64,000 bases of DNA from Nevskia sp. Lineage in GTDB: Bacteria > Pseudomonadota > Gammaproteobacteria > Nevskiales > Nevskiaceae. The DNA lies in the NCBI GenBank assembly GCA_019689635.1, contig JADGHB010000008.1, positions 1 through 64,000 on the forward strand, written 5' to 3'. This document shows, piece by piece, positions 3,221-30,046 of this stretch. Numbering within the stretch: the first letter of the stretch is position 1; each line of letters starts with the position of its first letter. The notes beneath the pieces were generated by a model. The model worked only from the letters and a program-made list of their open reading frames with translations, was not told the origin of the DNA and made no database searches. Both the position numbers and the translations under genes were made by a program.

Positions 3221-4125
3221 CCTCGCTGCCGCCGCGCTTCTTCGAGGCATTCCACGAAACCGAAATACCGGGGCTGCTCGGTTTCGCGCAGTTGCCGCAG
3301 CAGCGCCTGCTCGGTTTTGTACTTGACGTTGCCGATGGCCAGCGCGCCGATGCCCACCGCGGCGCTGCCGGGCAAACCCAGAGGCCTGGCGTCGTCCTTG
3401 ACCGCCACCGACTCGATCCCCTCCGGGGGCACGGCGTTGACGTCGGCGGCGACGAGCAGGTGCGCACCGGAGGTTTCCAGCTCGCGGCGCGAGAGCACCT
3501 GCACGCCGGCCTTGGCCACCGCCAGCACGACCTCGCTCTGCGCCAGCGCCCGGGCACGCTGCTGCGCATCGCCGCTGTGCAGCGGCGTGCAGCGCACGCC
3601 GAAGCGCCTGGCGAGGGCGTCGCTCGCGGCGCGCGCCGCGGCTTCCCCGCTGTGGCTGCCCAGGAACACCTGCGCCCCGGCCTGCGCGGCCAGCGTGCTG
3701 ACCAGCAGGCCCACCGGCCCGGTGCCGCCCAGCACCAAAACCCGACAGGCGGACAAGCCGCGCTGGAAGACGCGTTCCAGGGCTTGCTCCACTTTGGCGA
3801 TCATGGCGCCGGCGGTGGTGTAGGCGCCGCTGGGATCGGCGAAGACCGAGACTTCGAAGGGCGGCACCATGGCGGAGCGCGCGGCCTGGAGCATGTCGGC
3901 GGCGAGCAGCGCATCGCGGCCGCCGATGAACAGCGCCGTGCGCCGCACGCCGCGCGGACCGCGCGAGAAGATCGCATCCTGGGTGAACGCGGCGATGTCG
4001 TCCAGGCCGACGCCCGCGTAGGGAATGACGGCGTCCCAACCGGCGTCGTAGGCCATGTTCACGTCGAAAGGGCTCACCCGCGCCCCCGGCGTGGCGAAGT
4101 GCAGCAAGTAAGGCGGCTGTTCCAT
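3217..4125 (-). CDS. mtdB: NAD(P)-dependent methylene-tetrahydromethanopterin dehydrogenase
   Basis: MEQPPYLLHFATPGARVSPFDVNMAYDAGWDAVIPYAGV...VFADPSGAYTTAGAMIAKVE; characteristic MtdB sequence. Confidence 0.93.
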   Translation of the reverse strand: MEQPPYLLHFATPGARVSPFDVNMAYDAGWDAVIPYAGVGLDDIAAFTQDAIFSRGPRGVRRTALFIGGRDALLAADMLQAARSAMVPPFEVSVFADPSGAYTTAGAMIAKVEQALERVFQRGLSACRVLVLGGTGPVGLLVSTLAAQAGAQVFLGSHSGEAAARAASDALARRFGVRCTPLHSGDAQQRARALAQSEVVLAVAKAGVQVLSRRELETSGAHLLVAADVNAVPPEGIESVAVKDDARPLGLPGSAAVGIGALAIGNVKYKTEQALLRQLRETEQPRYFGFVECLEEARRQRG

Positions 4126-4182
4126 GGGTCGTTCGGGGGTCGTTTGGGGGTTGCTCGCGTTTCGTTGACCGGGCAGCGGGGA

Positions 4183-5223
4183 CTAGGCGCTCAGCGGCGC
4201 GCCTTGCGAGCGGCGCGCAGCCGCGGTGGCGTGGATCGCGGCGCCGGCATTGCGGGTGGCGCTCAAGACATAACGCAGCGCCGCGTCCGGGACGGCGGCC
4301 GCAACGGCGCGCACCAGCGTCTCGGCCTGCGCGTGGTCGGCGGCCAGGGCAAAACCGGTGGGCCCCCACGAGGACTGACCCACCGCCGCCGCGCCGTGCT
4401 CGCGCAGCCAGGCGAGCGCGCGCGCGACCGCCGGACTGCGGTAGCGCCGGCCGCCTTGAGCGGGCGCGAAGTAATCGCCGACGCGATCCTGCAAGCGCGT
4501 CAGGCCGGCGCCGAAGGCGCCGAGATCGCCTTCGGCGGCCGCGGGCAGGATTTCCATCAAGACCAGACGGCTGAGGGCCTCCGCCTCGGCCGCGGCAGAC
4601 GGCGCCAGTGCGGCGAAAGCGGCGCTTTCTTCCGCGCCGCTCAAACCCTGACGGCGGTCGTCGAAGATCAAAATCCAGGTCCAGGCCGCGGGCAGGGGCA
4701 GCCGCGCGACGATCGGCGGAGGGTTCGTCGCCTCCGCGCGGCGTCCGCCGTCCACGATCAGCCCGCCCTGCTCGAAAGCGCCCAGACCGATGGCCGAGCG
4801 GCGTCCGCGTTCGAGCCGGTGGGCCAGCTCGCGCGCGTCCAGCGCCAATCCGTAGAGCCGTGCCAGCGCGGTGCCGACCGCCAGCGCGAGCTGGGTGCCG
4901 GCGCCCAGACCGGCGTGTTCGGGCAAGGCTTGCTCGAGGTGCAAGACCACGCCGCCGTGCAAGCCGAGTTGGGCGCGCAGGCGCTCGGCGTAGGCCGCGG
5001 CGCGCGGCGCACCGGGCCCGTGCGCCACGACCTGCGGCGCGCGCTGCGCGCGCAAGCGCGTGCACGGCGTCTCGAGGGCCACGCCGATCGAACCGTAGCG
5101 TCGAGCGCCGGCGCTCAAATCGACGAAACCGAAATGCAGCCGCGCCGGCGCCTCGATACTCACCTCGGCGATCGGCGCGGAATGGCGGATTTCATGATCG
5201 GGGATGCGCATAACCGGCGACAT
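4183..5223 (-). CDS. mptG: Beta-ribofuranosylaminobenzene 5'-phosphate synthase (GHMP-kinase fold)
   Basis: VSIEAPARLHFGFVDLSAGARRYGSIGVALE...EHAGLGAGTQLALAVGTALARL; typical of MptG from C1 clusters. Confidence 0.85.
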   Translation of the reverse strand: MSPVMRIPDHEIRHSAPIAEVSIEAPARLHFGFVDLSAGARRYGSIGVALETPCTRLRAQRAPQVVAHGPGAPRAAAYAERLRAQLGLHGGVVLHLEQALPEHAGLGAGTQLALAVGTALARLYGLALDARELAHRLERGRRSAIGLGAFEQGGLIVDGGRRAEATNPPPIVARLPLPAAWTWILIFDDRRQGLSGAEESAAFAALAPSAAAEAEALSRLVLMEILPAAAEGDLGAFGAGLTRLQDRVGDYFAPAQGGRRYRSPAVARALAWLREHGAAAVGQSSWGPTGFALAADHAQAETLVRAVAAAVPDAALRYVLSATRNAGAAIHATAAARRSQGAPLSA

Positions 5224-5487
5224 TGGGGTCACAGGCTGGCCAGCAAGGGCTGTGCCGTCAATGTGCATTCGGAAAATCAATCAGCTACGACCAGCCGCGC
5301 GATGCGCTGTGGCATTTTTATCCCGCCGCTGGCGCGCATAGGCAACGCTCGCGCCTGGCACGTCAGGGCAAGCCGGCGAGAAAACCTCCGGCGACGCGGG
5401 TTTGCGCATGCGCTCCCCACTGGCACGGAACATGTGAACGAGCTCAACGCCCCGCGAATGCCTCACCGAAAACCATCGCCGATCGAC

Positions 5488-6714
5488 ATGAATCAGGCCC
5501 TGACCTGCCCTTTTTGCGGCCTTTTGTGCGACGACCTCGGCGTGGAATCGCGCGCTGGCCGGGCCGAGGTGACGGCGGCCGGCTGCGCGCAGGCGCGCGC
5601 GCTGTTCCCCGTCCCGCCCCAAGCCCAGGCGCGCATCGACGGACAGGCGGCGGACTGGCGCGCCGCCGCGAAGGCCGCCGCCGAGCGCCTGGCGGCGGCG
5701 CGGCGGCCCTCGATCGCCGGTCTGGGCTGCGATCTTGCCGGCGTGCGCGCCGCGCTCATGCTCGCCGAGCGCTGCGACGCACGGGTCGAACATCGGCACG
5801 GCGCGGCGCTGGCCCAGGAGCTGCGCGCCACGCGGCGCGGCGGTTCCCTGCGCACCACGCTTTCCGAGCTGCGCAACCGGGCCGACTGCGTGCTGTTCGC
5901 CGGCACGCGGGCGGCGGCCCATCCGCGTTTTTTCGAGCGCTGCATCGAGCCGCGCGAAGGCTTGTTCGGTGCGCGGCAGCGGCGGCTGATCCTGATCGGC
6001 GAGGCGGCGCAGACCGCGCCCGAGAGCGCGGCGCTCGAACACGCGCTGGCCTTTCCCAACGCGCATCTGGCCGAGGCGGTGCAACTGCTGCGCGCCCGGC
6101 TCGCCGGCCGGCGGCTCGACGCGCGGCACTGGCACGGCATCCCGATCGAACGCTTCGATGCGCTCGCCGCCGTGCTGCGCGCGGCGCATTACGGCGTGGC
6201 GGTGTGGGACGCCGCCGAACTTAAGCCCCCGCACGCCGAACTGGCGCTGCGCGCGCTCTACGATCTGGTCGCCGAACTCAACCGCGACACGCGCTGGGCG
6301 GCGCTACCGCTGGGCGGCAACGACGGTGCCGCCGGCGCGGCGGCGGTGTGCACCTGGCTCGCCGGCCGGCCGCCGCCGCTGCGCTACGTGCACGGCGCGC
6401 CGCAGGACGCGCTGAACGCCGACGCGACGGATCTGGTGATCTGGATCAGCGCCTTCGATCCGCAGGCGGCGCCGCCGCCGGACGTGCCGGCCGTGGTCCT
6501 GGCCCGCGCCGACTGGCGCGGTGGCGCCGCGCCCGCGATCTTCATCCCCGTGGCCGTGCCCGGCGTGCAGCGTCCGGGCGCCCTCGTGCGCCTGGACGAA
6601 GTGCCCTGCCTGCCGCTGGCCGCGCCCGCGCCCGCCGATCTGCCCGGTGTGGCCGACGTGCTCGACGCCGTGCGCGCCGGCCTGGCGGGAAGGAGCGCCC
6701 ATGCTGCGGCTTGA
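5488..6714 (+). CDS. fhcB: Formylmethanofuran dehydrogenase/formyltransferase-hydrolase complex subunit B
   Basis: MNQALTCPFCGLLCDDLGVE... start; located upstream of and overlapping fhcA. Confidence 0.9.
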   Translation: MNQALTCPFCGLLCDDLGVESRAGRAEVTAAGCAQARALFPVPPQAQARIDGQAADWRAAAKAAAERLAAARRPSIAGLGCDLAGVRAALMLAERCDARVEHRHGAALAQELRATRRGGSLRTTLSELRNRADCVLFAGTRAAAHPRFFERCIEPREGLFGARQRRLILIGEAAQTAPESAALEHALAFPNAHLAEAVQLLRARLAGRRLDARHWHGIPIERFDALAAVLRAAHYGVAVWDAAELKPPHAELALRALYDLVAELNRDTRWAALPLGGNDGAAGAAAVCTWLAGRPPPLRYVHGAPQDALNADATDLVIWISAFDPQAAPPPDVPAVVLARADWRGGAAPAIFIPVAVPGVQRPGALVRLDEVPCLPLAAPAPADLPGVADVLDAVRAGLAGRSAHAAA

Positions 6715-8374
6715 CCGCGCGCGCGTCTACGACCCCGTGCAGGGCTGGCGTGGGCAGTCGCGCTCGCTGTTCATCGAAAACGGACGCATGGTGGCCGATC
6801 CCGGCCCGCAAGCGACGGTCGAGCGAGTCATCGACCTCGAAGACGCCGTGGTCATGGCCGGCGGAATCGACATCCACAGCCACATCGGCAGCGGCAAGGT
6901 CAACCTCGCCCGCACCTTGATGCCGCACGATCACGCGCGCACCGAGCGCGCCGCCGCGCTGGAGAACGGCGCCTGGCGCCATGGCGGCAGCGGACAGGCC
7001 ACGCCCACCAGCTGGATCGCCGGCTACCGTTACGCGGAGATGGGCTACACCGCGGCCTTCGAGCCGGCCATGCTGCCGGTCAATGCGCGCGCCACTCATT
7101 ACACCCTCGCCGACACGCCGGTGATCGACAAGGGCGCCTATGTCCTGCTCGGCAACGACGATCTGTTCCTGCGTCTGCTGGCCCGCGGTGCCGAACCGCA
7201 GCGGCTGGCCGACTACGTGGCCTGGATGCTGGCGCGCACCCGGTCGCTGGCGGTCAAGGTGGTCAATCCCGGCGGGATCTCCGCCTTCAAGTTCAACCAG
7301 CGCGCGCTCGACCTCGACCAAGCGCACGCCTATTACGGCGTGACGCCGCGCCAGGTGCTGCGCGCCCTGGCGCGCGCGGTGCACGACCTCGGCGTGCCGC
7401 ATCCGCTGCACGTGCACACCAGCAACCTCGGCGTGCCCGGCAACGTCGCCACCACGCTCGCGACCATGGAAGCGGCCGAGGGCCTGCCCTTGCACCTGAC
7501 CCACGTGCAGTTCCACAGCTATGGCAAGGAGGGCCCGCGCGGCTTTTCCTCCGCCGCCGAGGCGATCGCCGAAGCGGTCAACCGGCAGCCCAACCTCTCC
7601 ATCGACGTGGGGCAGGTGATGTTCGGCCAGACCGCCACCGCCTCCGGCGACACCATGGCCCAGTACGCCAATCGCCGCCACGCCCATCCGCACGCCTGGA
7701 CCTGCATCGACATCGAATGCGAAGCCGGCTGCGGCGTGGTGCCGTTCCGTTATCGCGACCGCAACTTCGTGCACGCCCTGCAGTGGGCGATCGGCCTGGA
7801 ACTGTTTTTGCGCGTGCGCGACCCCTGGCGCATCTTCCTCACCACCGACCATCCCAACGGCGCGCCTTATACGGTTTATCCGCAGCTCATGCGCCTGTTG
7901 ATGGATCGCGGCTACCGCAATCGCATGCTCGATGCCGTGCATCCCGAAGTCGCCGCGCACAGCGCCTTGCGCGGCCTGGACCGGGAATACACGCTGGAGG
8001 AGATCGCCATCGTCACCCGCGCCGGGCCGGCGCGCTCGCTGGGCCTGCGCGACCGCGGCCATCTGGCCCCGGGCGCGGTGGCGGATCTGGTGGCCTACCG
8101 CGACGATCCCGATCGCGACGCCATGTTCGCGCGCCCCTCGCACGTGTTCAAGGACGGCGAGCTCATCGTCAGGGACGGCCGGCTGCTGGCCGCGCCGCAG
8201 GGCGCCACACTCGCGCTGGAGCCCGAATTCGACGCCGCCATCGAGGCGCAGATTTCCGAGCACTACGCGCGCCACCTGAGCTTGCGCGCCGAGCATCTGG
8301 CGGTCGGCGCGCAGGAACTGGCCGACTACGGCGGTCGCGCGCCGCTGATCCTGCCCTGCACGCGCCATGGCTGA
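6701..8374 (+). CDS. fhcA: Formyltransferase/hydrolase complex subunit A (amidohydrolase-like)
   Basis: VVMAGGIDIHSHIGSGKVNLARTLMPHDHARTE...HLTHVQFHSYGKEGPRGFSSAAEAIAEAVN; FhcA/FmdA signatures. Confidence 0.95.
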   Translation: MLRLDRARVYDPVQGWRGQSRSLFIENGRMVADPGPQATVERVIDLEDAVVMAGGIDIHSHIGSGKVNLARTLMPHDHARTERAAALENGAWRHGGSGQATPTSWIAGYRYAEMGYTAAFEPAMLPVNARATHYTLADTPVIDKGAYVLLGNDDLFLRLLARGAEPQRLADYVAWMLARTRSLAVKVVNPGGISAFKFNQRALDLDQAHAYYGVTPRQVLRALARAVHDLGVPHPLHVHTSNLGVPGNVATTLATMEAAEGLPLHLTHVQFHSYGKEGPRGFSSAAEAIAEAVNRQPNLSIDVGQVMFGQTATASGDTMAQYANRRHAHPHAWTCIDIECEAGCGVVPFRYRDRNFVHALQWAIGLELFLRVRDPWRIFLTTDHPNGAPYTVYPQLMRLLMDRGYRNRMLDAVHPEVAAHSALRGLDREYTLEEIAIVTRAGPARSLGLRDRGHLAPGAVADLVAYRDDPDRDAMFARPSHVFKDGELIVRDGRLLAAPQGATLALEPEFDAAIEAQISEHYARHLSLRAEHLAVGAQELADYGGRAPLILPCTRHG

Positions 8375-9287
8375 GTACGTCCGCAACGGCGTGCGCATCG
8401 ACGACACCTTCGCCGAGGCTTTCGGCATGCGCGCCACGCGCCTGCTGGTCACCGCCGACCATCCGCGCTGGGCGCACGCGGCCGCGGCGAGCGCCTGCGG
8501 TTTCGCCACCTCGGTGATCGGCTGCGGCTGCGAAGCGGGCGTGGAAGCGGAACTCGATCCCGCGGCCACCCCGGACGGGCGCCCGGGCGTGGCGCTGCTG
8601 TTGTTCGCCGTCTCGCGCGAAGCGCTGGCCGAACAGGTGGAACGCCGCGTCGGTCAGTGCCTGCTGACTTGCCCCACCACGGCGGTGTACGCCGGGATCG
8701 AGGGCGAGGATCGCATCCCGCTCGGCCGGCGACTGCGCTACTTCGGCGACGGCCATCAGAGGTCCAAAGTCGTGGACGGCCGGCGCCTGTGGCGCATCCC
8801 GGTGATGGAAGGCGAATTCCTGATCGAGGACGACACCGCGGCGGTGCGCGCCATCGGCGGCGGCAATCTGCTGATCCTGGCGCGCACGCGCGAGAGCGCG
8901 CTGCTCGCGGCCGAGTCCGCGGTGGCCGCGGCGCGCGCCGGGCGCGGCGCGATCCTGCCTTTTCCCGGCGGCGTGGTGCGCTCCGGATCCAAAGTCGGCG
9001 CGCGACGCTATCCCAAGCTGGGCGCCAGCACCAACGACGCCTTCTGCCCCAGTTTGCGCGGCTCGACCGACAGCGCGCTCGAGCCGCAGGTGGGCTGCGT
9101 CCTGGAGCTGGTGTTCGACGCGCTGACCGAAGCCGACATGCAAGGCGCCATGCGCGCGGCGCTGGCGGCGATCTGCGCGCGCGGCGGCGCCGGCGGCGTG
9201 CTGCGCGTGAGCGCCGGCAACTACGGCGGCAAGCTCGGCAAGTATCACTTCCACCTGCGCGACATCCTGCCGGAGCAAGACCCGTGA
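8367..9287 (+). CDS. fhcD: Formylmethanofuran-H4MPT formyltransferase (complex subunit D)
   Basis: VRNGVRIDDTFAEAFGMRATRLLVTADHPRWA...YPKLGASTNDAFCPSLRG...NYGGKLGKYHFHLRDIL; Ftr family. Confidence 0.96.
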   Translation: MAEYVRNGVRIDDTFAEAFGMRATRLLVTADHPRWAHAAAASACGFATSVIGCGCEAGVEAELDPAATPDGRPGVALLLFAVSREALAEQVERRVGQCLLTCPTTAVYAGIEGEDRIPLGRRLRYFGDGHQRSKVVDGRRLWRIPVMEGEFLIEDDTAAVRAIGGGNLLILARTRESALLAAESAVAAARAGRGAILPFPGGVVRSGSKVGARRYPKLGASTNDAFCPSLRGSTDSALEPQVGCVLELVFDALTEADMQGAMRAALAAICARGGAGGVLRVSAGNYGGKLGKYHFHLRDILPEQDP

Positions 9288-9449
9288 GCGCGCCGACACG
9301 GTGTTTGCGCGTAGCGCAATGGGGCGGACCGCAGGTCCGCGCCGAGGGCAGGAGCCCGAGGCCGGGCTGTTGGCGAGGCAGGATGCCGAGCCTACAGCGG
9401 GAGGTGCACGTCCGCTCACCGCAATGGCGCTACCGTCCTCTCAATCGCG
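9283..9449 (-). repeat. Copy B of the 167-bp inverted repeat, between fhcD and fhcC
   Basis: Reverse complement aligns without gaps to 10-176 (159/167). CCGTGAGCG occurs directly repeated at 9282-9290 and 9458-9466. Confidence 0.95.
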
Positions 9450-9459
9450 GGGTTCGTCC

Positions 9460-10263
9460 GTGAGCGGACTGATCCTCACCCTCAAACCGCAGGCGCCCGA
9501 AGCGCTGGACGGCGCCGGCCTGCTGCCGGCCTCGCTCGCCGGACTGAGCCCCGCCGAGGCCGCGCGGCGGCCGCTCGCCCCGGGGATCGAGCTCGGCGAG
9601 TGTTTCACGGTCCAAGCCGACCCCGCGGCGCCGGACCACCGGCTCACGCTGCGCACCGGCGCGCGCCGCCTCGCGCGCCTGGGCTGCGCCATGGACGGCG
9701 GCACGCTGCGCGTCGTGGGCGACGCCGGCGATCTGCTGGGACAAGACCTGCGCGGCGGCGAGATCGTGGTCGAAGGGGGATGCGGCGCTTACGCCGGCGC
9801 TGGCCAGCGCGCAGGCCTGATCCGCGTGCGCGGCGATGCCGGCGATTTTCTCGGCGGCGCCGCCGACGGCTACGAGGGAATGCGCGGCGGCGTCCTGCTG
9901 GTGCAAGGCCGCGCCGGCGCGCGCGCGGGCTGGCGCATGCGGCGCGGCTTGATCGCGGTGGCCGGCGGTTGTGGGGACTGGTGCGGCGCCGAGATGCTGG
10001 CGGGCACGCTGGTCGCGCCGCGCTGCGGCGCGCGGGCGGGGCTGGGATTGCGGCGCGGTTCGCTGGTGTTGTGGGAATGCCCGCCGGAACTGCCCGCGAC
10101 GTTCAACGACGCCGGCGTCGCAGAATTCGTCTGGCTCGCGCGCCTGGACCGCTGGCTGGCGGCGCTCGAGTTTCGGCTCCCGCCCTTGACCCAGCGCGCG
10201 CGGCGGCTGGTGGGCGATCAGGGCGCGGGCGGCAAAGGCGAAATCCTGATCGTCGGCGGTTGA
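9460..10263 (+). CDS. fhcC: Formyltransferase/hydrolase complex subunit C; alternative in-frame ATG at 9424
   Basis: GTG start gives MSGLILTLKPQAPEALDGAGLLPASL...GDAGDLLGQDLRGGEIVVEGGCGAYAG...; FwdC/GltS-like G-rich repeats. Confidence 0.9.
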   Translation: MSGLILTLKPQAPEALDGAGLLPASLAGLSPAEAARRPLAPGIELGECFTVQADPAAPDHRLTLRTGARRLARLGCAMDGGTLRVVGDAGDLLGQDLRGGEIVVEGGCGAYAGAGQRAGLIRVRGDAGDFLGGAADGYEGMRGGVLLVQGRAGARAGWRMRRGLIAVAGGCGDWCGAEMLAGTLVAPRCGARAGLGLRRGSLVLWECPPELPATFNDAGVAEFVWLARLDRWLAALEFRLPPLTQRARRLVGDQGAGGKGEILIVGG

Positions 10264-10280
10264 GCCGGCGTTCGTTTACG

Positions 10281-10781
10281 ATGCGCATGCGAGGACGTGA
10301 GGCCGTGACGACGAACAAGATTCATCCCCTGTCTTTCGAAGCCGAGCGCGCCCCGGCGGACGGGACCCCCGGCGACCGCGTGTTGATCCGCGGCCTTCGG
10401 GCGCAGACGCGCATCGGCTTGCACGACGAGGAACAAGAGCGTCTCCAGCCGGTGGTGATCGACCTGGTCGCCGAGCGGCGCCATCTCGCCGCCTGCGTGA
10501 GCGACGCGGTGGGCGACACCATCGACTACGCCACCGTGCGCGCGCGCGTGCTGGAGCATCTGCGCGGCCACGGCCGGCGGCTGCTGGAAGCGCTGGCCGA
10601 AGACCTGGCCGAGATCCTGCTGCGCGAGTTCGGCGCGGATTGGGTGCGAGTGCAGATCGTCAAGCCGCGCAAGTTCGAGGACGTGGACGCGGTCGGCGTG
10701 TGCATCGAACGCCGCCGCCCGCCGCTGGGCAGCGCGGAAATCCTGAATTTCCTCGGCCGCGGGCTCGCGCCTCAGGGCTGA
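10281..10781 (+). CDS. Dihydroneopterin aldolase-like protein (FolB family) of the C1 cluster
   Basis: VLIRGLRAQTRIGLHDEEQERLQPVVIDL...DTIDYATVRARVLEHL...VQIVKPRKFEDVDAVGVCIER. Confidence 0.88.
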   Translation: MRMRGREAVTTNKIHPLSFEAERAPADGTPGDRVLIRGLRAQTRIGLHDEEQERLQPVVIDLVAERRHLAACVSDAVGDTIDYATVRARVLEHLRGHGRRLLEALAEDLAEILLREFGADWVRVQIVKPRKFEDVDAVGVCIERRRPPLGSAEILNFLGRGLAPQG

Positions 10782-13427: not shown

Positions 13428-14555
13428 CTACGGGCGCGCCGCCTCCAGGCTGCCGAAGGCGCGCGGCCAGGTCACGATTCCCCAGGGCAACTCGAACCCC
13501 GACAGTTTTTCGATCACGGCGTAGCGCTGCGCATCGATCACTTCCACGTCGCCGGAACGGCCGCAGGCCAGCAGCAGCTTGCTCCCGTCCGGCGTGAAAC
13601 TGAAATGCCAGCAGCGCTGGCCCACCGGGATGTCGGCCAGGCGCTGGTAGGTCTTGGCGTCGAACACCTGCAACCGTTTGCCCATCGCCGCGGCGATGAA
13701 GATGCGCTGCCCCGCGGGATCGAAGGCAACGCCGTAGGGCCCCTTGGCCGTCGGCACGGATTTCAGAACCTTGAAGTCGTCGTCCAGCACCAGGAAGTTT
13801 CCGGACAACTCCATGGTCACGATGTAGCGCTGGCCGTCCGGGGACAGCTTGACGCCGCGCGGCCGCAGTCCGTACTGGGTCAAATCGACTTTTTTGACCA
13901 GCTTGCGGTCGCCGAAATCGTACACGCTCAAGGTATCGTCGCCTTCGTTGGCGATCACCAGGTTTTTCAGGTCGGGCGTGAATTCCAGACCCTCGGTTTC
14001 CGGCGCGCCGACGATGTCGTCCACGATTTTCCAGTCGTGGAGATCGATGACCGCGATGTGTCCCGGCAATTCCTTGCCCTCGTGCTCCGCCTCGCCCGGT
14101 GTCGGCTTGCCGCCGCTGACGGCGGACTCCGGCTCATACGTGGCGAAGGCCTTGCTACCGTCCGGCAGCACGCGCAGAAACTCGGGACTGGTCCCGATCG
14201 GGATGCTGCGCAGGACTTCGAGGGTGTGAGTGTCGATCACCGACATCGCACCGGTCTTTTGATCCACGGTGAGCAGGTATTTGCCGTCCGGCGTCACGGC
14301 CAGGCCGCGCGGTCCTGCGCCCTCAAGGTCCACGTGCCGTACTTCTTTCATGGTCTTAAGGTCCAGTACCGACAAGCCATCGCCCTGGTTGCTGACGTAG
14401 GCGAGCGGTGCGGCAGAGGCGGCGGCCACGTGGAGCCAAAGAACGCTCGGCAGCAGGATCGCGCCGCCGACACCGCGCCAAGGGCGCACACGCGCCAGCG
14501 GGCTCCGGGCCGCCGTTCGCGGCCCTGGGCTGCGATGCGCGGTCAAGGAGCGCAC
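13428..14555 (-). CDS. YVTN-type beta-propeller protein associated with the xox cluster
   Basis: AAPLAYVSNQGDGLSVLDLKTMKEVRHVDLEGAGPRGLAVTPDGKYLLTVDQ...repeated VIDTHTLEV/VIDLHDWKI propeller blades; N-terminal signal-like segment; GTG start proposed. Confidence 0.85.
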   Translation of the reverse strand: MRSLTAHRSPGPRTAARSPLARVRPWRGVGGAILLPSVLWLHVAAASAAPLAYVSNQGDGLSVLDLKTMKEVRHVDLEGAGPRGLAVTPDGKYLLTVDQKTGAMSVIDTHTLEVLRSIPIGTSPEFLRVLPDGSKAFATYEPESAVSGGKPTPGEAEHEGKELPGHIAVIDLHDWKIVDDIVGAPETEGLEFTPDLKNLVIANEGDDTLSVYDFGDRKLVKKVDLTQYGLRPRGVKLSPDGQRYIVTMELSGNFLVLDDDFKVLKSVPTAKGPYGVAFDPAGQRIFIAAAMGKRLQVFDAKTYQRLADIPVGQRCWHFSFTPDGSKLLLACGRSGDVEVIDAQRYAVIEKLSGFELPWGIVTWPRAFGSLEAARP

Positions 14556-14562
14556 GGGCTTC

Positions 14563-15117
14563 TTACTCGCCGGACGGCGGCGGAGGCGCGGGCGGCGCGC
14601 CAAACTTGTACTGGGGATCGCCGGCGTACTTGGAGCGCACGAACGCCAGAATCCTCCACAGATCGTCGGCGCTCTTGATGATTCCTCCGAACGGGGGCAT
14701 GGGGCCCACGACGTTTTCCTGCCCGATGCGCGTGTAGCCCTGTTTCTGCAAGTCATCGCTGCCCAGCGTAACCAGACGGAACAAGGTGTCGTCGTCCCCG
14801 CCATAGACCCAGGTGTCGTTGATCAGCGGCGGGCACATGCCACCGCCGCCGCCGCCGCCGTGACAGCCGTTGCAGCCGTAACTGAGGAACAAATGCTGGC
14901 CGTCGGCGACGATGTCGGCCTGCGTGTCCTGGTACGGATTCTTGAGCTGTCCCTTGGGCGTTTGTTTGACCAGATCGGGCGGGGTGATGGTCTTGTAATC
15001 CACCGCTTTGGCCTCGGTTTTCTCCCCGGTGGCGGCGGTGGCTTTGCCGTGCGAACAGCCGGCGGCGGAAGCGATCAGCAGGGTCAGGGCGCAACGCCCC
15101 AGGACGGATTTCAGCAC
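14563..15117 (-). CDS. c-type cytochrome of the methanol dehydrogenase cluster
   Basis: Lipobox-like SAAGC, one CNGCH haem motif followed by GGGGGGGM, and GPMPPFGGIIKSADDLWRILAFVRSKY. Confidence 0.88.
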   Translation of the reverse strand: MLKSVLGRCALTLLIASAAGCSHGKATAATGEKTEAKAVDYKTITPPDLVKQTPKGQLKNPYQDTQADIVADGQHLFLSYGCNGCHGGGGGGGMCPPLINDTWVYGGDDDTLFRLVTLGSDDLQKQGYTRIGQENVVGPMPPFGGIIKSADDLWRILAFVRSKYAGDPQYKFGAPPAPPPPSGE

Positions 15118-15209: not shown

Positions 15210-16865
15210 TCAAAGCGATTTGTCCGTTTTACGAACGGAGTTCTCCAACAGCTTGACGACCTCGGTGCTGTTGTTGGTCTGCGCGATGCTCAAAGCCGTA
15301 CGCCCGTCCTGACTCTGCACGCGCGGGTCGGCGCCATGATCGAGCAACAGGCGCACCAGATCGTCATGATTGTCGGCCGCGGCAATCATCAGTGCGGTGA
15401 CGCCACCGGCATTGCGGGCATTGACGTCGGCGCCATGCTCCAGGAGCAGCCGCACGTCCTCCGCAGAGCCCGAAGCCGTGGCCAGCATCAACGGCGTGTA
15501 GCCGCCCTTGCCGTACTTGCCGTTGACCTTGGCGCCGGCGGCGATCAGCGCGGCCAGCGCTTTGGACTTGGCGTTCTGCGCGGCGATCGCCAGCGGCGTC
15601 AGGCCGTCGGGACTCGTGGTCTCCAGTCGGGCGCCTTTGGCCGCCAGCGTGCGCACCAGCTCGGCATCGTCGTTCCAGGCGGCGTACATCAGCGGCGTCC
15701 AGCCGCTGCGATCCGCGCGATTGACGTCGGCGCGGTGCTCGATCAAATCGGCGGCCACTTTCCCGAAGCCGAACCGCGCGGCGTTGGTCAGGGCGGTGTA
15801 GCCCTCGTTGTCGCTCGCATTCGGATCGGCGCCGTGCGCGAGCAAATAATCGATGCGCGTGAGATCCTGGGCGAGGATGGCGTTCTGCAGTTCGTCGTTC
15901 GGCTTGGCACCCTGCGCCAGCCACTGCTTGAGTTGATCGAGACTGACGCCCTCGGTTTTTTGCGCCGGTGCGGCGGCGATGGTCGGCGGCGTCAGCGGCG
16001 CATAGGGACCGTGCGAGGGCAAGTCGCCGGAGACGATGCACTCCGGGCATTTCACCAGCGGTACGCCGTAGTCCACCAGCACCTGGCGGATCTTGTCCTT
16101 CTGTTTGCGCATCGCATCTTCGAGTCGCGCCTTGAGCTCGACGTTGCCCTTGGCCACGGCCAGCGCCAGGTCCTCTTCCAGCGGGATGCGGTCGTCCATC
16201 AGATTGAGCGGCTGGAGCTCGAGCGGGGCGTGCTTGATGGACTTGTAGTAGCCGGCCAGCGGGCCCCATATCGCGGCGGCGTCGAGCGTGCCGTCGATGA
16301 CCTGCTGAACCTGGTAGGAGGGTTGCTCCTTGGGATCGGCCACCGTGTTGTAGGTCACGTAGTGGATGGCGATGTTGTTGCCGGCATGGCCGTGCTCGGC
16401 CAGTGCGGCGCGAATGGAGGAGGTCTCATAAACCCCAAGATGCAGTTTCTGCAGCAAGGGATCGTCGAGGTTGGCGATCTTGATGTGCCGATCGCTGCGC
16501 GTGACCAGCACGAATGTCGAGCGGTACAAAGGCACGGTGGTCAGCGCGCCTTCGGTACCCGGCGGCATGTCGAGCCACACGTCGCACAGCGCCTCGCCGA
16601 GCGTCTTGCGCATCATGCCGTGGCCGATGGTCGGCCACCACTGGAACTGGACGGTGTCGCCCATGCCCTCGGCGATCACCGGAGCGAGCTTGTTCTCCAG
16701 ACCTTCGCCGTCGCGACTGGACAAGGGCATGTTCCCGGGATCGGCGCAAACTTTGAGTGTTGCCGGCCCGTTCGCGACCCCATCTGCACTGTAGGCTGCG
16801 GCGCTGACCGCAAGCCCGCCAAACGCAAGGCCGGCAGCCAGGATTTTTCCAAGGTTCGCGTTCAT
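15210..16865 (-). CDS. XoxJ-like periplasmic substrate-binding protein fused to C-terminal ankyrin repeats
   Basis: N-terminal signal, LKVCADPGNMPLSSRDGEGLENKLAPVIAEGMGDTVQFQWWPTI (quinoprotein-dehydrogenase-associated SBP), then at least five ANK units such as GGYTPLMLATASGSAEDVRLLLEHGADVNARN. Confidence 0.9.
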   Translation of the reverse strand: MNANLGKILAAGLAFGGLAVSAAAYSADGVANGPATLKVCADPGNMPLSSRDGEGLENKLAPVIAEGMGDTVQFQWWPTIGHGMMRKTLGEALCDVWLDMPPGTEGALTTVPLYRSTFVLVTRSDRHIKIANLDDPLLQKLHLGVYETSSIRAALAEHGHAGNNIAIHYVTYNTVADPKEQPSYQVQQVIDGTLDAAAIWGPLAGYYKSIKHAPLELQPLNLMDDRIPLEEDLALAVAKGNVELKARLEDAMRKQKDKIRQVLVDYGVPLVKCPECIVSGDLPSHGPYAPLTPPTIAAAPAQKTEGVSLDQLKQWLAQGAKPNDELQNAILAQDLTRIDYLLAHGADPNASDNEGYTALTNAARFGFGKVAADLIEHRADVNRADRSGWTPLMYAAWNDDAELVRTLAAKGARLETTSPDGLTPLAIAAQNAKSKALAALIAAGAKVNGKYGKGGYTPLMLATASGSAEDVRLLLEHGADVNARNAGGVTALMIAAADNHDDLVRLLLDHGADPRVQSQDGRTALSIAQTNNSTEVVKLLENSVRKTDKSL

Positions 16866-17051: not shown

Positions 17052-18953
17052 TCAGCCGCCGATGCGGAAGGTATACATCGTTCCGCCCTGCGGAATGTGG
17101 TTCAAGCCCGCCGCCTTGGTCATGGCCGTGGCACCGATCGCGCCGAACTTGTCGTTCAGATCGAGGCCGGCGGTGACCGGCAGGCCGATCCAGCCGCCGA
17201 TGCCGGAGTACACGGAGATGTATTCCTTGCCCTTGACCTTCCAAGCGATCGGGTTGCCGATGATGCCGGACCCCAGCTTGCGTTGCCACAGGATCTTGCC
17301 GGTCTTGCGATCCAGCGCGCGGAAGTCGCCGCCGAGGCTGCCGTAGAACACCAGCCCGCCGGCGGTGTTGAGCGTGCCGCCCCAGTTCGGATACTGATCC
17401 GGGACTTCCCACTCGGTCTTGCCGGTGACGACGTTGAACTTCTTGATCTTGCCCGTCACGCCCGGCTTTTCCGGGTACATGTAGACGTTGGCGAAGACGT
17501 ACACCGTACCTTGCTGGGTGTGGGAGCGCTGCTGCGGATTGAGCTCCATGCACCAGTTGTTGGTCGGCGCGTAGAAGTTGGCCGGGTCCGCCGGATCCAC
17601 CGACACCGGCTGCTGGTCTTTACCGCCCATCGCCGAGGGACACGCCTGAGTATTCTGGCCGACGAGCAAGGGCGAATGCTCGGCGACCTTGACCGGACGG
17701 CCGGTCTTGAGATCGACCTTCTCCGCCCAGTTCACGGTGACGTACTTGTTGGCGCGCAACAGCGTGCCATCCACCCGGTCGAGCACGTAGGCGAAGCCGT
17801 TGCGGTCGAAGTGCACCAGCGCCTTGTGCTTCTTGCCGTCCACGTCGAGGTTGTCGACCAGCACGTCCTCGTTGATGCCGTCATAGTCCCACTGATCGAA
17901 CGGCGTCATCTGGTAGGCCCACACCGCCTCGCCGGTATCCACCTTGCGCGCGAAGATGGTCATCGACCACTTGTTGTCCCAATCCCCGTTGTTGCAGGCT
18001 TCTTGGGTTTGCGGATTGGCACCGCAGCGGAAAGACGGACTCCACAGGCCGGGGTTGCCGGTGCTGTAGTACACCAGCTTGAGTTCGGGATCGTAGGAAT
18101 ACCAACCCCAGGCCGCACCGCCGCCGCGCTTCCACTCGTCACCCGGATAGGTGTGGATGCCGAGATCCTTGCCCGCGGTACCGTATTCCGGATGCGCCTT
18201 GTTGGTATCCGGCGTGAGGCACACGTCTTTGTCGGAACCGGTGCTGTAGCACTCCCACACTTTCGAGCCGTCGGCCAGATTGTAGGCATCGACCCGGCCG
18301 CGCGCGGCGAATTCGTCGCCGCCGAACCCGATGATGACCTTGTCGTCGGCGATGATCGGCGCCGGAGTGATGGTCTCGCCGTGCTCCGGCCAGGCATGCT
18401 TGACGACCCAGTCTTCCTTGCCGGTCTTGGCGTCGAGCGCAATCACGTAGCCGTCCAGCGTGCCGAACACGAATTTGCCGTCGGCATAGGAACCGCCGCG
18501 GTTGACTGTGTCGCAGCAGGCGCGTGGCACGGCGGAGGCGTCACGACCGCCCTGCTTGACGTAGCTCCACAACTGCACCGGGTTGTCCGGATCGGAGAGG
18601 TCCAGCGCCTGCACGATGTTGCACTTGGACATCTCGGGGCAGCCGCTGACCATGAACATCGTCGGCCGACCATCGACGTCAACGACCAGCGGTTGGCCTT
18701 CCTGACCGCGCAAGGCGCCCAGCGATTGCGCCCACACCATTTGCAGATTCTTGACGTTGCCGGTGTTGATGTCTTTCAGCGCGCTATGACGTTGCACCGA
18801 GAAATTGCCGCCTGGAGCGGCCCATAGATCGGGGTTTTTGAAAGCCGCCATCTGCTCCGCATCCGACCCGGCGACGGCGGCACCGCACAAACCGATCAGC
18901 GCCGCTCCGGCGCAGAACATCCCGACTCCGCGTTTTGCTGTAAGCCAACTCAT
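17052..18953 (-). CDS. xoxF: Lanthanide-dependent PQQ methanol dehydrogenase
   Basis: PQQ ADH fold. RACCDTVNRGGSYADGKFVFGTLDGYVIALDAKTG contains vicinal Cys; FDQWDYDGINEDVLV carries the extra Asp (WDYDG) diagnostic of XoxF relative to MxaF. Confidence 0.95.
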   Translation of the reverse strand: MSWLTAKRGVGMFCAGAALIGLCGAAVAGSDAEQMAAFKNPDLWAAPGGNFSVQRHSALKDINTGNVKNLQMVWAQSLGALRGQEGQPLVVDVDGRPTMFMVSGCPEMSKCNIVQALDLSDPDNPVQLWSYVKQGGRDASAVPRACCDTVNRGGSYADGKFVFGTLDGYVIALDAKTGKEDWVVKHAWPEHGETITPAPIIADDKVIIGFGGDEFAARGRVDAYNLADGSKVWECYSTGSDKDVCLTPDTNKAHPEYGTAGKDLGIHTYPGDEWKRGGGAAWGWYSYDPELKLVYYSTGNPGLWSPSFRCGANPQTQEACNNGDWDNKWSMTIFARKVDTGEAVWAYQMTPFDQWDYDGINEDVLVDNLDVDGKKHKALVHFDRNGFAYVLDRVDGTLLRANKYVTVNWAEKVDLKTGRPVKVAEHSPLLVGQNTQACPSAMGGKDQQPVSVDPADPANFYAPTNNWCMELNPQQRSHTQQGTVYVFANVYMYPEKPGVTGKIKKFNVVTGKTEWEVPDQYPNWGGTLNTAGGLVFYGSLGGDFRALDRKTGKILWQRKLGSGIIGNPIAWKVKGKEYISVYSGIGGWIGLPVTAGLDLNDKFGAIGATAMTKAAGLNHIPQGGTMYTFRIGG

Positions 18954-19236: not shown

Positions 19237-19932
19237 TTAGGCCGACGTTTCGACGAGCCGTTCCACGCGCTCCGGCAGCTCGACGAAGCGTTCCGCGAAC
19301 AGCACCGGCGCCGGCCAGGCGCGCAGGCGGTTCGCACCGTAGCCGTAGGCAACGCCAATGAAGGCGGTGCCGGCGGACTGTGCCGCGGCGGCATCCGGGA
19401 AATCGTCGCCGACCATCACCGCCTTGCGTGATCGGCAATTCAACCGCTCCAGCGTCGTCAGCAGCGGCAACGGGTCGGGCTTGCGCGCCGGCGTGCTGTC
19501 GCCGCCGATGACGGCGCCGAACCAGGATGTCAGTTCGCAGGCTTCGAGTATGGCCAGCGACAGCTCGATCGGCTTGTTGGTGCACACGCCCAGCCGCCAG
19601 CCCGCCGTGCTCAGCGCGGCTAGCGTTTCGGGCACGCCGGGATAGGGCCGCGTGAGCCGCGTGCACTGCGCGCGATAGTCTTCCATGAAGCGGGGCAACA
19701 AGCGCTCGATGCGCGCGGGCCGAGGGTCCGCGCCGCGTGCGGCCAGCGCGCGCGCCAGCAAGGCCTGCACGCCATCGCCGATCAGGGTCGTGACCGTCTC
19801 CAGATCCAGCGGCGGCAGGCCTTCGGCGGCCAGCACGCGGTTGAGGCTGGCGCACAAATCCGCGGCGCTGTCCACCAAGGTGCCGTCGAGATCGAAAACC
19901 AACGCACCACGAGTCGCGCCGGGGACGCTCAT
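19237..19932 (-). CDS. gph: Phosphoglycolate phosphatase
   Basis: [33 protein letters not shown]...GVCTNKP...KPDPLPLL...[20 protein letters not shown] motifs, cbb context (cbbZ role). Confidence 0.92.
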
Positions 19933-20876
19933 GCGGGGGTCTGCGGCTTCCCGGGACCGGCGAGCACGCGGCTGGCGCGGATGTCTTCCGCTTCGATCGT
20001 CATCAGTGCATCGGCACTGACCTGCCGCCGGGAGAACAGGCGGTTGGCCTGGCGCAGCCGCGCGCGGTCCAGGGCGTTGCGCACGCTGCGCGCGTTGGCG
20101 AAATGCGGCTGCTGCATGCGCTTGACCAGGTATTCGCGGAACGCGGCTTCCGCTTCGGCGCTGAAGCGATATTGCTGCTGGGCGAGCATCAGGCGCGCGA
20201 TGGCCAGCAGCTCGTCCACCGTATAGTCGGGAAAGTCGAGGTGGTGGGCGATGCGCGAGCGGAATCCCGGATTGGCCTTGAAGAAGCTGTCCATGCGATC
20301 GGCATAGCCGGCGAGGATCACCACCAGATCCTCGCGCTGGTTTTCCATCACCTGCAGGAGGATCTCGATCGCCTCCTGGCCGTAGTCACGCTCGTTTTCC
20401 TGCTTGTAGAGGTAGTAGGCCTCGTCGATGAACAGCACGCCGCCCATCGCGCGCTTGAGCACTTCCTTGGTCTTGGGCGCGGTGTGGCCGATGTACTGGC
20501 CGACGAGGTCGTCGCGCGTCACGGCCACCAGGTGGCCCTGGCGAACGTAACCCAGCCGGTGCAGGATCTGCGCCATGCGCAAGGCCACCGTGGTCTTGCC
20601 GGTGCCGGGATTGCCGGTGAAGCTCATGTGCAGCGTCGGCGCCGACGCCGACAGGCCCAGCTGCTTGCGCACGCGCTCGACCAGCAGGAGCGCGGCGATC
20701 TCGCGGATGCGCGTCTTGACCGGCTTCAGACCCACCAGCTCGCGGTCGAGCTGGTCCAGCACTTCCTGGATCTGGGTGCTGCGGTAGGCTTCTTCGAGAT
20801 CGATGGAGGCTTCCGATGCGGGCGCTGCCGGCGTCGTTGTCGCGGGAGGATCCGGACGTTCGGCTCGAACGGGCAT
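19929..20876 (-). CDS. cbbX: Red-type RuBisCO activase CbbX (AAA+ ATPase)
   Basis: [98 protein letters not shown]. Confidence 0.97.
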
Positions 20877-20900
20877 AGGGAATTCACCTCCTCGGATCGC

Positions 20901-21482
20901 TCAATGCATCAGCACCAGCCCACGCTCGACCTCGGCCCGGCGCAGCCGGCCGGTGAGCTTTTCCACCAAAGCCAGGGCAAAGGCGATGGCGGTGCCGGGG
21001 CCGCGCGAGGTGATCAAGGCGCCATCGTCCACCACGGCCTCCTCGCGGTAGTGCACGTCCGGCCGCGCGACTTCGTCCTTGAACTTGGGATTGCTCGTCA
21101 CACGCCGCCCGGCGAGCAGCCCCTGCGCGGCCAGCACCGAAGGCGCGCCGCAAATCGCGGCGGTATACCGCGCCTCCTCGTGAAAGCGCTGCACCAGCGC
21201 CCCGATGCGCGGGTCTTCGCGCAGGTGACGCACGCCGGGCATGCCGCCGGGCAGCACCAGCATGTCGAATGCCTCGCCGAACACCGCATCGAGCGGCGCA
21301 TCGGGCAGCAGGACCGTGCCGCGCGAACCGCGCACCGGCCCGTCGCGCAGGCCGGCGACGACCACCTCGACGTCCGCACGGCGCAGGACGTCGATGATCG
21401 TCACCGCTTCCAGCTCCTCGAAACCCTCAGCCAGGGGCAAGAGCACGCGCGGCGTGTGGTGACAGCTTTCGGGGACGCTCAC
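20901..21482 (-). CDS. DJ-1/PfpI family protein
   Basis: PRVLLPLAEGFEELEAVTIIDVLRRADVEVVVAGL...ARYTAAICGAPSVLAAQGLLAGRRVTSNPKFKDEV; DJ-1/YajL-like with AAICGAP nucleophile elbow. Confidence 0.92.
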   Translation of the reverse strand: MSVPESCHHTPRVLLPLAEGFEELEAVTIIDVLRRADVEVVVAGLRDGPVRGSRGTVLLPDAPLDAVFGEAFDMLVLPGGMPGVRHLREDPRIGALVQRFHEEARYTAAICGAPSVLAAQGLLAGRRVTSNPKFKDEVARPDVHYREEAVVDDGALITSRGPGTAIAFALALVEKLTGRLRRAEVERGLVLMH

Positions 21483-21496
21483 GACGCACTCCGCAT

Positions 21497-21935
21497 TCAG
21501 CGATAGCGCTCGCCTTCGGCAGCGTCGGTGGCGTAGGGATGCACGGTATAGCGGATGTGTCGCCCCTCGCATTCCTGGCGCCACAGGCCGAAGCCCGGCT
21601 CTTCTTTCGGTCGGTTGACGAGGTAGGACATGCGCGGCGTCTCCCAGCCGCGCGTGCTGTCGAAGGCGGTGACGCGCACGTAATGGTTGGGATACGCCTT
21701 GCGGCACTGGTTGATCTCGTAGAGGATCGCCGCCGGGTCCTTCAAATCGAACATCGGCAAGCCCCACATCTCCCAGTAGGTGTTGCGCGGATGCGGATCG
21801 TCGGTGAACTCCACGTTGATCGCCCAGCCCTGGCTCAGCGCGTACTTGAGCTGCGCGATGATCTGCTCGTCGGTGAGATCGGGCAGGAACGAGAACTGGC
21901 CCTGCGTGATGCGGCTGCCGTGATTGGTCATCATG
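21497..21935 (-). CDS. cbbS: RuBisCO small subunit
   Basis: [63 protein letters not shown]; red-type small subunit. Confidence 0.97.
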
Positions 21936-21960
21936 TCGCGTGCTCCTGCTAAAAGTTCAT

Positions 21961-24550
<2,590 letters not shown>

Positions 24551-24584
24551 CTTCGGTTCCTCGCTAGGCTCGTTCGACGGGATC

Positions 24585-25460
24585 TCACAGCATGCGCCGG
24601 CGGGTCTCGACCAGCCGCATGATCATCGGCGTCAGGATCAGCTGCATCGCCAGATCCTGCTTGCCGCCGGGGATCACGATGGAGTTGGCGCGCGACATGA
24701 AGCTGTCGTGGATCATCGACAGCAGGTAGGAAAAGTCGATGCCGCGCGGATTGCGGAAGCGGATCACCACCATCGACTCGTCCGGGGTCGGGATCCAGCG
24801 CGCGATGAACGGGTTGGAGGTGTCCACCGTCGGCACGCGCTGAAAATTGATGTCGGTGTGCGAGAACTGCGGACAGATGTAGCGGACGTAATCCGGCATG
24901 CGCCGCAGGATAGTGTCGGTGATCGCCTCGGTGCTGTAGCCGCGCGCGCTGCGGTCGCGGTGCAGCTTCTGGATCCACTCCAGGTTGATCACCGGCACCA
25001 CGCCGATCTTGAGGTCCGCGTACTGCGCGACGTTGACTTGTTCGGTCACCACCGCGCCGTGCAGTCCTTCGTAAAACAGCACGTCGCTGTCCGGTTCGAA
25101 GTTTTCCCACTCGGTGAACGTGCCGGGCGGCACCCCGTAGCGGGCCGCTTCCTCGTCGTCGTGGACGTAATGACGGGTGCGGCCGGTGCCGCTGGCGGCG
25201 TACTGGCGGAATACCGCTTCCAGCTCGGGCAAGAGGTTCGCTTCCGGCCCGAAATGGCTGAAATGATGGTCGCCCCTGGCCGCCGCCTCGGCCATCGCCC
25301 GCTTCATGCCCGCGCGGTCGTAGCGGTGGAAAGCGTCGCCCTCGATATAGACCGCCTTGACGTGTTCGCGGCGGAAGATCTGCTCGAAGGTCTTTTTGAC
25401 GGAGGTCGTCCCGGCGCCGGAAGAGCCGGTGACGGAGATGATCGGATGGCGTGCCGACAT
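24585..25460 (-). CDS. cbbP: Phosphoribulokinase
   Basis: [56 protein letters not shown]...[11 protein letters not shown]; proteobacterial PRK. Confidence 0.97.
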
Positions 25461-25469
25461 GGGATTTCC

Positions 25470-26531
25470 TTATGCGCGCAGCAAACCGCGCGGTCGGAAC
25501 AGCGGCGAGCGCTCGGCATCGTGGCCCAAGCCCTGCACGTAGCGCGCCACCCGCGCCACTTCCGAGGCCGAGCCGAACACCAGCGGCGTGCGCTGGTGCG
25601 CGCTGCCGGGCACGAGATCGAGAATGCGCTCTACGCCGTCGGTGGCAGCGCCGCCGGCTTGCTCCATCAGCAGGGCGATGGGATTGGCCTCGTACACCAG
25701 ACGCAGCCGTCCCTGGCGATAGCCGGCGCGCGCGTCGCCGGGATAGAGGTAAATCCCTCCGCGCACGAGAATGCGCCAGGTCTCGGCGACCAGCGAAGCG
25801 ATCCAGCGCATGTTGCAGTCCTCGCGGCGCGGCCCTTCCTCGCCGCGGATGCAGTCGTCCACGTAGGCGCGGATGGCGGGATCCCAGTGGCGCTGGTTGG
25901 AGGCGTTGATCGCGAACTCTTGGGTGCGCGTGGGCACGCGCACGTTGCGCGCGACGAGACGAAACAGTTTTTGAGTCGGACCCGCGCGGCGCTCGAGCAC
26001 GTACAGGCTGGTACCGGCACCCAGCGTCAGCGCCAGCGAGGTCTGCGGGCCGTAGATGAAAAATCCCGCGGCGAGCTGCGCCCGGCCGGGTTGCAGAAAG
26101 CTGACCTCGGGACCGCCTTCGACCTGCGGCAGGATCGAAAAGATGGTGCCGATGGAGACGTTGGTGTCGATGTTGGACGAACCGTCGAGCGGATCCAGCG
26201 CCACCATCAGCGGCGCGCGCGGATCGAGCGTCAACGGAGTTTCGTCCTCCTCGGACAAGACCGCGGCCACTGGCGCCGCGCGCAGGGCGTCGATGAAGTG
26301 CTGGTGCGCGAGCACGTCCAGCTCGGTGGCCTTGTCGCCGCCGCCGCGTTCGGCGTGCACCCGGCCGTGCTCTCCGGCCAGCGGCCCGAGCGCGATACGC
26401 TCGGCGATCGGCACGGCGGCCTGCGCCAGCGCGTGCAGGGTCGCGGACAGTGCGCGCGCCAGCTCGGCTTCGCCCGCCTGGGCGCGCAGGTCGGCGTCGA
26501 GCGTATCGGGCAGCGTCTTGGCAGTGGGCAT
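25470..26531 (-). CDS. cbbF: Class I fructose-1,6-bisphosphatase
   Basis: VLSEEDETPLTLDPRAPLMVALDPLDGSSNIDTNVSIGTIFSILP...GGIYLYPGDARAGYRQGRLRLVYEANPIALLMEQAGG. Confidence 0.97.
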   Translation of the reverse strand: MPTAKTLPDTLDADLRAQAGEAELARALSATLHALAQAAVPIAERIALGPLAGEHGRVHAERGGGDKATELDVLAHQHFIDALRAAPVAAVLSEEDETPLTLDPRAPLMVALDPLDGSSNIDTNVSIGTIFSILPQVEGGPEVSFLQPGRAQLAAGFFIYGPQTSLALTLGAGTSLYVLERRAGPTQKLFRLVARNVRVPTRTQEFAINASNQRHWDPAIRAYVDDCIRGEEGPRREDCNMRWIASLVAETWRILVRGGIYLYPGDARAGYRQGRLRLVYEANPIALLMEQAGGAATDGVERILDLVPGSAHQRTPLVFGSASEVARVARYVQGLGHDAERSPLFRPRGLLRA

Positions 26532-26600
26532 GGCGATCTCCTCGAGGCGCATGCGCGGGCGGGAAGGGTCGGCGAAACTACCTTACGCCCGCGGGTGTTT

Positions 26601-28759: not shown

Positions 28760-30046
28760 ATGAAAATGCGGTCCGCAGGTCCCGCGCTCGTCGCGGGGAG
28801 TTTGTTGTTCTGTGCAACGGCACCGGCCTGGGCGATCGACTTCCAGAGCGACGACTGGAAGTTCTCCCTCGACGGCAACGTCAACGTCGATTACATCTAC
28901 TCGAGCTGCGAGGGAGCGAGCTCGGCCCATACCGTCGCGGGCGGGCTGGCTTGCGTCGGTTCGGCCAGCGGCAGCAGCGTGTCGAACATCAGCAACGGCC
29001 TGCTGCCGGCGGCCTTCACGTTCGGCGTGGCCACCACGCAGGACGATATCGACCTGTCCGCGCACCTGGGCCTGTATCCCGGCATCGCCACCAACGACGG
29101 CGGCAGCCCCAACCTGCAAAGCGGCGGCAGCAACACGGCACTGGGCACTACCGGCCTGGACGTGCGCCAGGTGTACATGACCTTCGGCAACAAGAACTGG
29201 GGCACCTTCCTGCTCGGGCGCAACTTCGGCCTGTTCGGCTTCGACGTCATCATCAATGACATGACCCTGCCCGGCGTGGGTGGTCCCGGAGGTTCGGCTT
29301 CTGCGGCGCCGGCCAATACCACGCTCGGTTCGATCGGCCTGGGTTATATCTACACCGACACGCTGGGTCAGATCGACTACACCACGCCCGACTTTGCCGG
29401 CTTCACGGCGACCATCGGCATCTACGATCCTCTAAATGCAATCAATGGAGCGGGTGCTGTCATAGGCGGCAAATTTGTACCGGATTCACCACAACCAAAG
29501 TCCGCACCTGGGTTTCACGGCAAGTTGGCGTACAAACTCGATTTCGGCGGCGGCACCAAGCTGTATCTGTCCAGTGCCTTTATCACTCAAAAGCAGAAAT
29601 TTATTGCCGCAGCGACCGGCAATCCATACAGCTACAACGCCTTAGGTATCGATGCCTTCGCCATGCTGGACATCAGCGACTTCGAGCTGTTCGGCTACTA
29701 CTACCACGGCAGCGGCCTGGGCACGACCGGGTTGTTTGTCTTAGGTGACGATGGATTAAGCGATGGCAAAAAGCGCTCCTCGAACGGCTACCTGATCCAG
29801 GGCACCTACAAGATCGGCAAGTGGAAGCTGGGCGTGAACTATGGCGATAGCAGCCTGGATCTCGCCAGTGGCGAAACCAATCCCACCCTGGTCAAGGACA
29901 ACCGCAAGGTGACCGGCGGCGTGTACTACTCGCTGACCAAGAACCTCACGCTGCTCGGCGAAGTCACCAACGTGGACGCCAAGAACCACGCGGGCGACAG
30001 CAACAACGCCACCACGGTCAACGTCGGTGCCTTCCTAAGCTTCTAA
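28760..30046 (+). CDS. Outer-membrane porin
   Basis: MKMRSAGPALVAGSLLFCATAPAWA signal peptide; FSLDGNVNVDYIYSS...VRQVYMTFGNKNWGTFLLGRNFGLFGFD...; alternating beta-barrel strands, C-terminal Phe. Confidence 0.88.
   Translation: MKMRSAGPALVAGSLLFCATAPAWAIDFQSDDWKFSLDGNVNVDYIYSSCEGASSAHTVAGGLACVGSASGSSVSNISNGLLPAAFTFGVATTQDDIDLSAHLGLYPGIATNDGGSPNLQSGGSNTALGTTGLDVRQVYMTFGNKNWGTFLLGRNFGLFGFDVIINDMTLPGVGGPGGSASAAPANTTLGSIGLGYIYTDTLGQIDYTTPDFAGFTATIGIYDPLNAINGAGAVIGGKFVPDSPQPKSAPGFHGKLAYKLDFGGGTKLYLSSAFITQKQKFIAAATGNPYSYNALGIDAFAMLDISDFELFGYYYHGSGLGTTGLFVLGDDGLSDGKKRSSNGYLIQGTYKIGKWKLGVNYGDSSLDLASGETNPTLVKDNRKVTGGVYYSLTKNLTLLGEVTNVDAKNHAGDSNNATTVNVGAFLSF

Follow-up and report, generated by a model that had tools for sequence, protein, structure and literature searches.

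A XoxJ-ankyrin fusion gene adjoining XoxF1-type lanthanide methanol dehydrogenase genes in Pseudomonadota

The fused gene and its neighbours in the window

We consider first the genes surrounding the fusion in the window, by which we mean the whole stretch of 64,000 nucleotides that was analysed. The fusion gene lies exactly where an earlier sequence-only reading had placed it, on the minus strand (which that reading left unstated), with its ATG at 16865 and its stop at 15210. Following this strand, xoxF is located upstream of the fusion, while a cytochrome gene and then a YVTN propeller gene are located downstream. The features are as follows.

15210..16865, minus strand: xoxJ-ank fusion gene, 551 aa (open frame; TIGR03871 and Ank matches)
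16782..16865, minus strand: putative signal peptide for Sec export, residues 1 to roughly 28 (by eye)
16053..16757, minus strand: XoxJ/MoxJ periplasmic-binding-protein domain, residues 37-271 (TIGR03871; 6onp and 9ism by sequence and fold)
16038..16049, minus strand: CxxC motif, C273-x-x-C276, immediately following the XoxJ domain (a mark of the fused clade alone)
15942..16037, minus strand: linker, residues 277-308 (290-305 predicted disordered)
15231..15941, minus strand: ankyrin domain, residues 309-545, with seven repeats behind a cap helix (Pfam, model, Foldseek, purifying selection)
17052..18953, minus strand: xoxF, XoxF1-type lanthanide methanol dehydrogenase, 633 aa (7o6z match; GGDEF, WDYDG; XoxF1 clade by sequence)
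17994..18026, minus strand: C310/C320, the extra cysteine pair in the partner XoxF1 (dehydrogenase comparison)
14563..15117, minus strand: xoxG-like c-type cytochrome (Cytochrome_CBB3 match and weak MoxG match)
13428..14480, minus strand: YVTN beta-propeller protein (related to TIGR03866, whose cut-off it does not reach)

The fusion protein is encoded in a single open frame of 551 residues, so the passage from XoxJ into ankyrins noticed earlier is real, and its domains follow the order signal-peptide-like N-terminus, XoxJ/MoxJ domain, flexible linker and seven ankyrin repeats (about 320-545). Export of the protein, as first proposed, is likely, judging by the resemblance by eye of its N-terminus, MNANLGKILAAGLAFGGLAVSAAAYSA, to a Sec signal peptide; this putative signal peptide is disordered in the AlphaFold2 model and variable in sequence across the fused clade. 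The family assignment of the XoxJ domain is borne out by the NCBIfam model TIGR03871 (quinoprotein dehydrogenase-associated substrate-binding protein, MoxJ_2), which matches residues 37-271 with 224.2 bits against a cut-off of 212.15; the MoxJ equivalog TIGR03870 reaches 117.7 bits, below its curated cut-off of 258.1. The gene context of the TIGR03871 family is present as well, the fusion gene adjoining those of a PQQ methanol/ethanol dehydrogenase and a c-type cytochrome. The domain matches the XoxJ structure (PDB accession code: 6onp) and the MxaJ chain of 9ism by sequence, and Foldseek relates the N-terminal part to MxaJ (9ism, in complex with MxaF; 5sv6) and to XoxJ (6onp, TM 0.89 to target). 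Unlike a stand-alone XoxJ, which ends shortly after this domain, the protein continues for ~280 residues that contain the ankyrins.

At least five ankyrin units had been claimed for this extension. The Pfam ankyrin models confirm the domain (about 328-545; Ank_2 scoring 146 bits, cut-off 27), and the number becomes seven in the AlphaFold2 model, where seven helix pairs follow one capping helix; Foldseek relates this C-terminal part to ankyrins and DARPins. The model, built from an alignment of 22 fused proteins (mean pLDDT 84, pTM 0.51), contains two well-predicted domains joined by a linker whose pLDDT is below 50 at residues 290-305 and whose length and sequence vary within the clade. As the pTM indicates, the model does not fix how the XoxJ and ankyrin domains are placed relative to each other, and no docking face can be read from it. 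The clade conserves the two parts alike (22% of positions at >=90%), with E325, D334 and R337 of the first repeat and M460 of the fifth being invariant. Purifying selection acts on the ankyrin part, whose dN/dS, computable for seven close pairs, is 0.17-0.52. A type IV effector was considered on account of weak matches to Dot/Icm Ank models and was rejected, as all of them are far below cut-off and run through the repeats only.

The window XoxF scores 551 bits against TIGR03075 and carries the lanthanide Asp (WDYDG), and with a c-type cytochrome gene downstream on the same strand the description of the locus as a lanthanide methanol dehydrogenase operon stands. This is the only XoxJ of the window genome, which also has pqqC and four genes above the TIGR03075 cut-off. 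The window encodes methylene-H4MPT dehydrogenase, methenyl-H4MPT cyclohydrolase and formyltransferase, and from its genes the host is probably a methylotroph fixing carbon by the Calvin cycle. An H4MPT-dependent C1 cluster (mch, mtdB-like, formyltransferase, amidohydrolase, GXGXG protein and ATP-grasp genes) spans positions 172-10781, a Calvin-cycle cluster (RuBisCO large chain, CbbX, class II aldolase, phosphoribulokinase) spans 19929-26552, and a porin and a TonB-dependent receptor are found at 28802-30046 and 36195-38390. While the window has H4MPT genes, seven other XoxF1 clusters (L129, L130, L131, L194, L199, L200, L202) contain the glutathione formaldehyde pathway, with S-(hydroxymethyl)glutathione synthase, class III ADH and S-formylglutathione hydrolase.

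Recurrence of the fusion and its link with XoxF1

The same architecture was sought beside other xoxF genes, as the sequence-only reading had advised, and is found in 22 further genomes. The XoxJ-domain searches covered samples of the window's family, order, class and phylum, three other families and a GTDB contig scan. They gave 140 distinct XoxJ-family genes, 23 of them (the window's included) with in-frame ankyrins and 117 without. The fused genes come from five families in two classes of Pseudomonadota, a single family belonging to the class other than the window's, including the named records of Rudaea cellulosilytica DSM 22992 and one proteobacterial MAG, and they are exactly the genes that score highest on the XoxJ domain (~190 bits or more, versus <=162 for the others). 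With 22 further independent copies at hand, both a sequencing or assembly error joining two genes and a fusion unique to the window genome are ruled out. One fused gene (L132, in G021) is cut at a contig start and was found as two pieces, which may be an assembly truncation. The plasmid collection yielded no fused copy covering the query and no XoxF1-like dehydrogenase at >=60% identity.

In a maximum-likelihood tree of the XoxJ domain alone (140 genes), all 23 fused genes fall on one side of a branch with an SH-aLRT support of 100; the row L033 in this tree represents the window's gene on a truncated locus, and its label as unfused reflects only the early end of that locus. The simplest reading of the tree would be that the fusion arose once, several independent fusions being ruled out by the single supported clade, and the interleaving of families within the clade suggests horizontal transfer. 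What had looked like a possible oddity is instead a conserved clade tied to XoxF1-type dehydrogenases. Although the fusion recurs in genomes, the prior description that the first reading had allowed for was not found: the searched open-access literature (subscription papers and preprints lie outside this scope) contains no link of ankyrins with XoxJ, MxaJ or XoxF. XoxJ-ank is apparently an undescribed variant of the known helper XoxJ.

We turn to the dehydrogenase that accompanies it. The best solved structure for the window XoxF is 7o6z (869 bits; next 551), the XoxF1-type dehydrogenase of Methylacidimicrobium thermophilum AP8, in which an extra Asp (Asp172-equivalent, within GGDEF) is diagnostic of XoxF1 (PMC8546591). 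The window XoxF has this Asp in addition to that of WDYDG. GGDEF is present in most of the fusion partners and is replaced by GGNEF in four (G006, G990, G866, G921). All 19 near-complete partner dehydrogenases group with 7o6z at 100% in the dehydrogenase tree, and by these sequence comparisons the partner belongs to the XoxF1 clade. Two partners have peculiarities of their own: the XoxF beside the fusion in L203 (G875) lacks the XoxF1 Asp and has WDYDA in place of WDYDG, such that its active site may differ, and the window XoxF has, alone among 19 partners, an insertion of five residues that brings in two further cysteines (GCPEMSKCN, residues 105-111).

The association is also seen in the gene neighbourhoods and in whole genomes. 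All 21 loci with sequence upstream of the fusion have xoxF directly there, and 22 of 23 loci have xoxG downstream. Dehydrogenase fragments beside unfused XoxJs have <=52% identity to the window XoxF, versus >=61% beside fused ones; an unfused XoxJ is never next to an XoxF1-like dehydrogenase, the sole apparent exception (L136) holding both clusters. Among 369 genomes of the class, the four with an XoxF1-like dehydrogenase (E <=1e-180) are the same four that have the fusion, and in a set of 135 genomes from another order an XoxF1-like dehydrogenase occurs in G703 alone, which holds the fusion. Only 15 of 23 loci have a propeller gene in the vicinity of the fusion. The earlier suggestion of a scaffold tethering XoxF, the cytochrome or the propeller is thus compatible with these data for the first two, which are constant neighbours; for the propeller it is disfavoured, as is any role centred on it, because the complete loci L129, L130 and L131 are without that gene.

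Proposed role and competing explanations

We think it fairly probable that XoxJ-ank is a dedicated maturation chaperone of XoxF1, to which the ankyrins would add a protein-binding arm. XoxJ and MxaJ are essential for their methanol dehydrogenases and may bind the partly folded apo-enzyme, letting PQQ and metal in; their role is debated, with regulation and modulation of the cytochrome proposed as well (PMC12997753). A complex of MxaF and MxaJ has been determined by cryo-EM (9ism). By analogy, the fused protein may do for XoxF1 what XoxJ and MxaJ do for their dehydrogenases. It would be exported first; its XoxJ domain, as proposed for XoxJ/MxaJ, would then bind partly folded apo-XoxF1 and keep the cofactor site open for PQQ and lanthanide, and the ankyrin arm, on its flexible linker, may hold the helper on XoxF1 or recruit the electron acceptor XoxG. 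That ankyrin repeats can serve cofactor enzymes is illustrated by AnkB and Cj1386, ankyrin proteins which help catalase acquire or hold heme and which offer an analogy here. Against the chaperone proposal, operon linkage can persist without contact between the gene products, the model offers no docking face, and the unfused XoxJ and MxaJ work without ankyrins, which leaves the gain from adding these to be explained.

Alternatively, the ankyrin domain would be an electron-transfer scaffold, holding XoxG beside mature XoxF1 during turnover and acting outside maturation. The gene xoxG is the other constant neighbour of the fusion, and verrucomicrobial methanotrophs fuse XoxG and XoxJ themselves (cytochrome cGJ). 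A soluble c-type cytochrome, however, normally has to leave to hand on its electron, and as far as we are aware, electron transfer in the well-studied systems does not require XoxJ. We regard such a scaffold as unlikely.

The cysteines of the two partners bring in another explanation. The CxxC directly after the XoxJ domain is found in 23 of 23 fused XoxJs and in 0 of 117 unfused ones. The extra pair C310/C320 is found in 19 of 19 fusion partners and in 0 of 21 other dehydrogenases, a count that partly rests on fragments, and is Thr/Ala in 7o6z; it sits shortly after the GNP motif of XoxF1, the Asn of which serves as a metal ligand in methanol dehydrogenases. In a thiol-disulfide maturation factor, the CxxC would form or reshuffle this pair near the metal site while the ankyrins hold the client. 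Both distributions speak for this; against it, there is no thioredoxin fold around the CxxC, which may be a mere structural disulfide at the domain junction. Moreover, since each of the two marks has become fixed in a single clade, their association amounts to one evolutionary event rather than several. We consider this explanation distinctly improbable. A shade more doubtful is a composite chaperone in the XoxF1 systems of Pseudomonadota, where XoxJ would open apo-XoxF1, the ankyrins would clamp the client or XoxG, and the CxxC would set the extra XoxF1 disulfide closing a loop by the lanthanide site, such that metal loading would be coupled to disulfide formation.

Least credible to us is an ankyrin domain with an unrelated job (e.g., attachment to the cell envelope or to an unlinked protein) that is merely carried by the fusion: ankyrin domains do bind very diverse partners and the model leaves the arrangement of the two domains unfixed, but among the 140 XoxJ-family genes every member of the clade keeps its ankyrins, the members are always with xoxF1 wherever the neighbourhood is visible, and the ankyrin part diverges about as fast as the XoxJ part.

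A fusion tied to one type of dehydrogenase provides a defined handle on how XoxJ-type proteins help methanol dehydrogenases gain PQQ and lanthanide. In two genomes (G802 and G909), an XoxF1 cluster containing the fused helper lies a few kb from a second dehydrogenase (MxaF-like in G909) that has a stand-alone helper, which allows a comparison in the same cell. XoxF1 systems of Pseudomonadota can also be recognised in genomes simply by the fusion together with its CxxC.

Comparison with known systems

Among the closest known systems are XoxJ of Methylobacterium extorquens (6onp) and MxaJ (5sv6, 9ism), which have the same domain by sequence and fold and a gene near those of a dehydrogenase and a cytochrome. 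These known proteins stop at the XoxJ domain, without the CxxC tail or the ankyrins, whereas the fusion has both; their dehydrogenase partners are XoxF5 or MxaF, and that of the fusion is XoxF1. The XoxF1 of 7o6z is from the same clade as the window XoxF and shares its extra Asp (GGDEF), but is without the extra cysteine pair. Cytochrome cGJ of Methylacidiphilum is a XoxG-XoxJ fusion and, like XoxJ-ank, has XoxJ joined to another domain in a lanthanide dehydrogenase system. In cGJ that domain is the cytochrome, while in XoxJ-ank it is an ankyrin array and XoxG is encoded by a separate gene. AnkB of Pseudomonas aeruginosa (periplasmic) and Cj1386 of Campylobacter are likewise ankyrin helpers of a cofactor enzyme; unlike XoxJ-ank, they stand alone, serve catalase and have no XoxJ domain.
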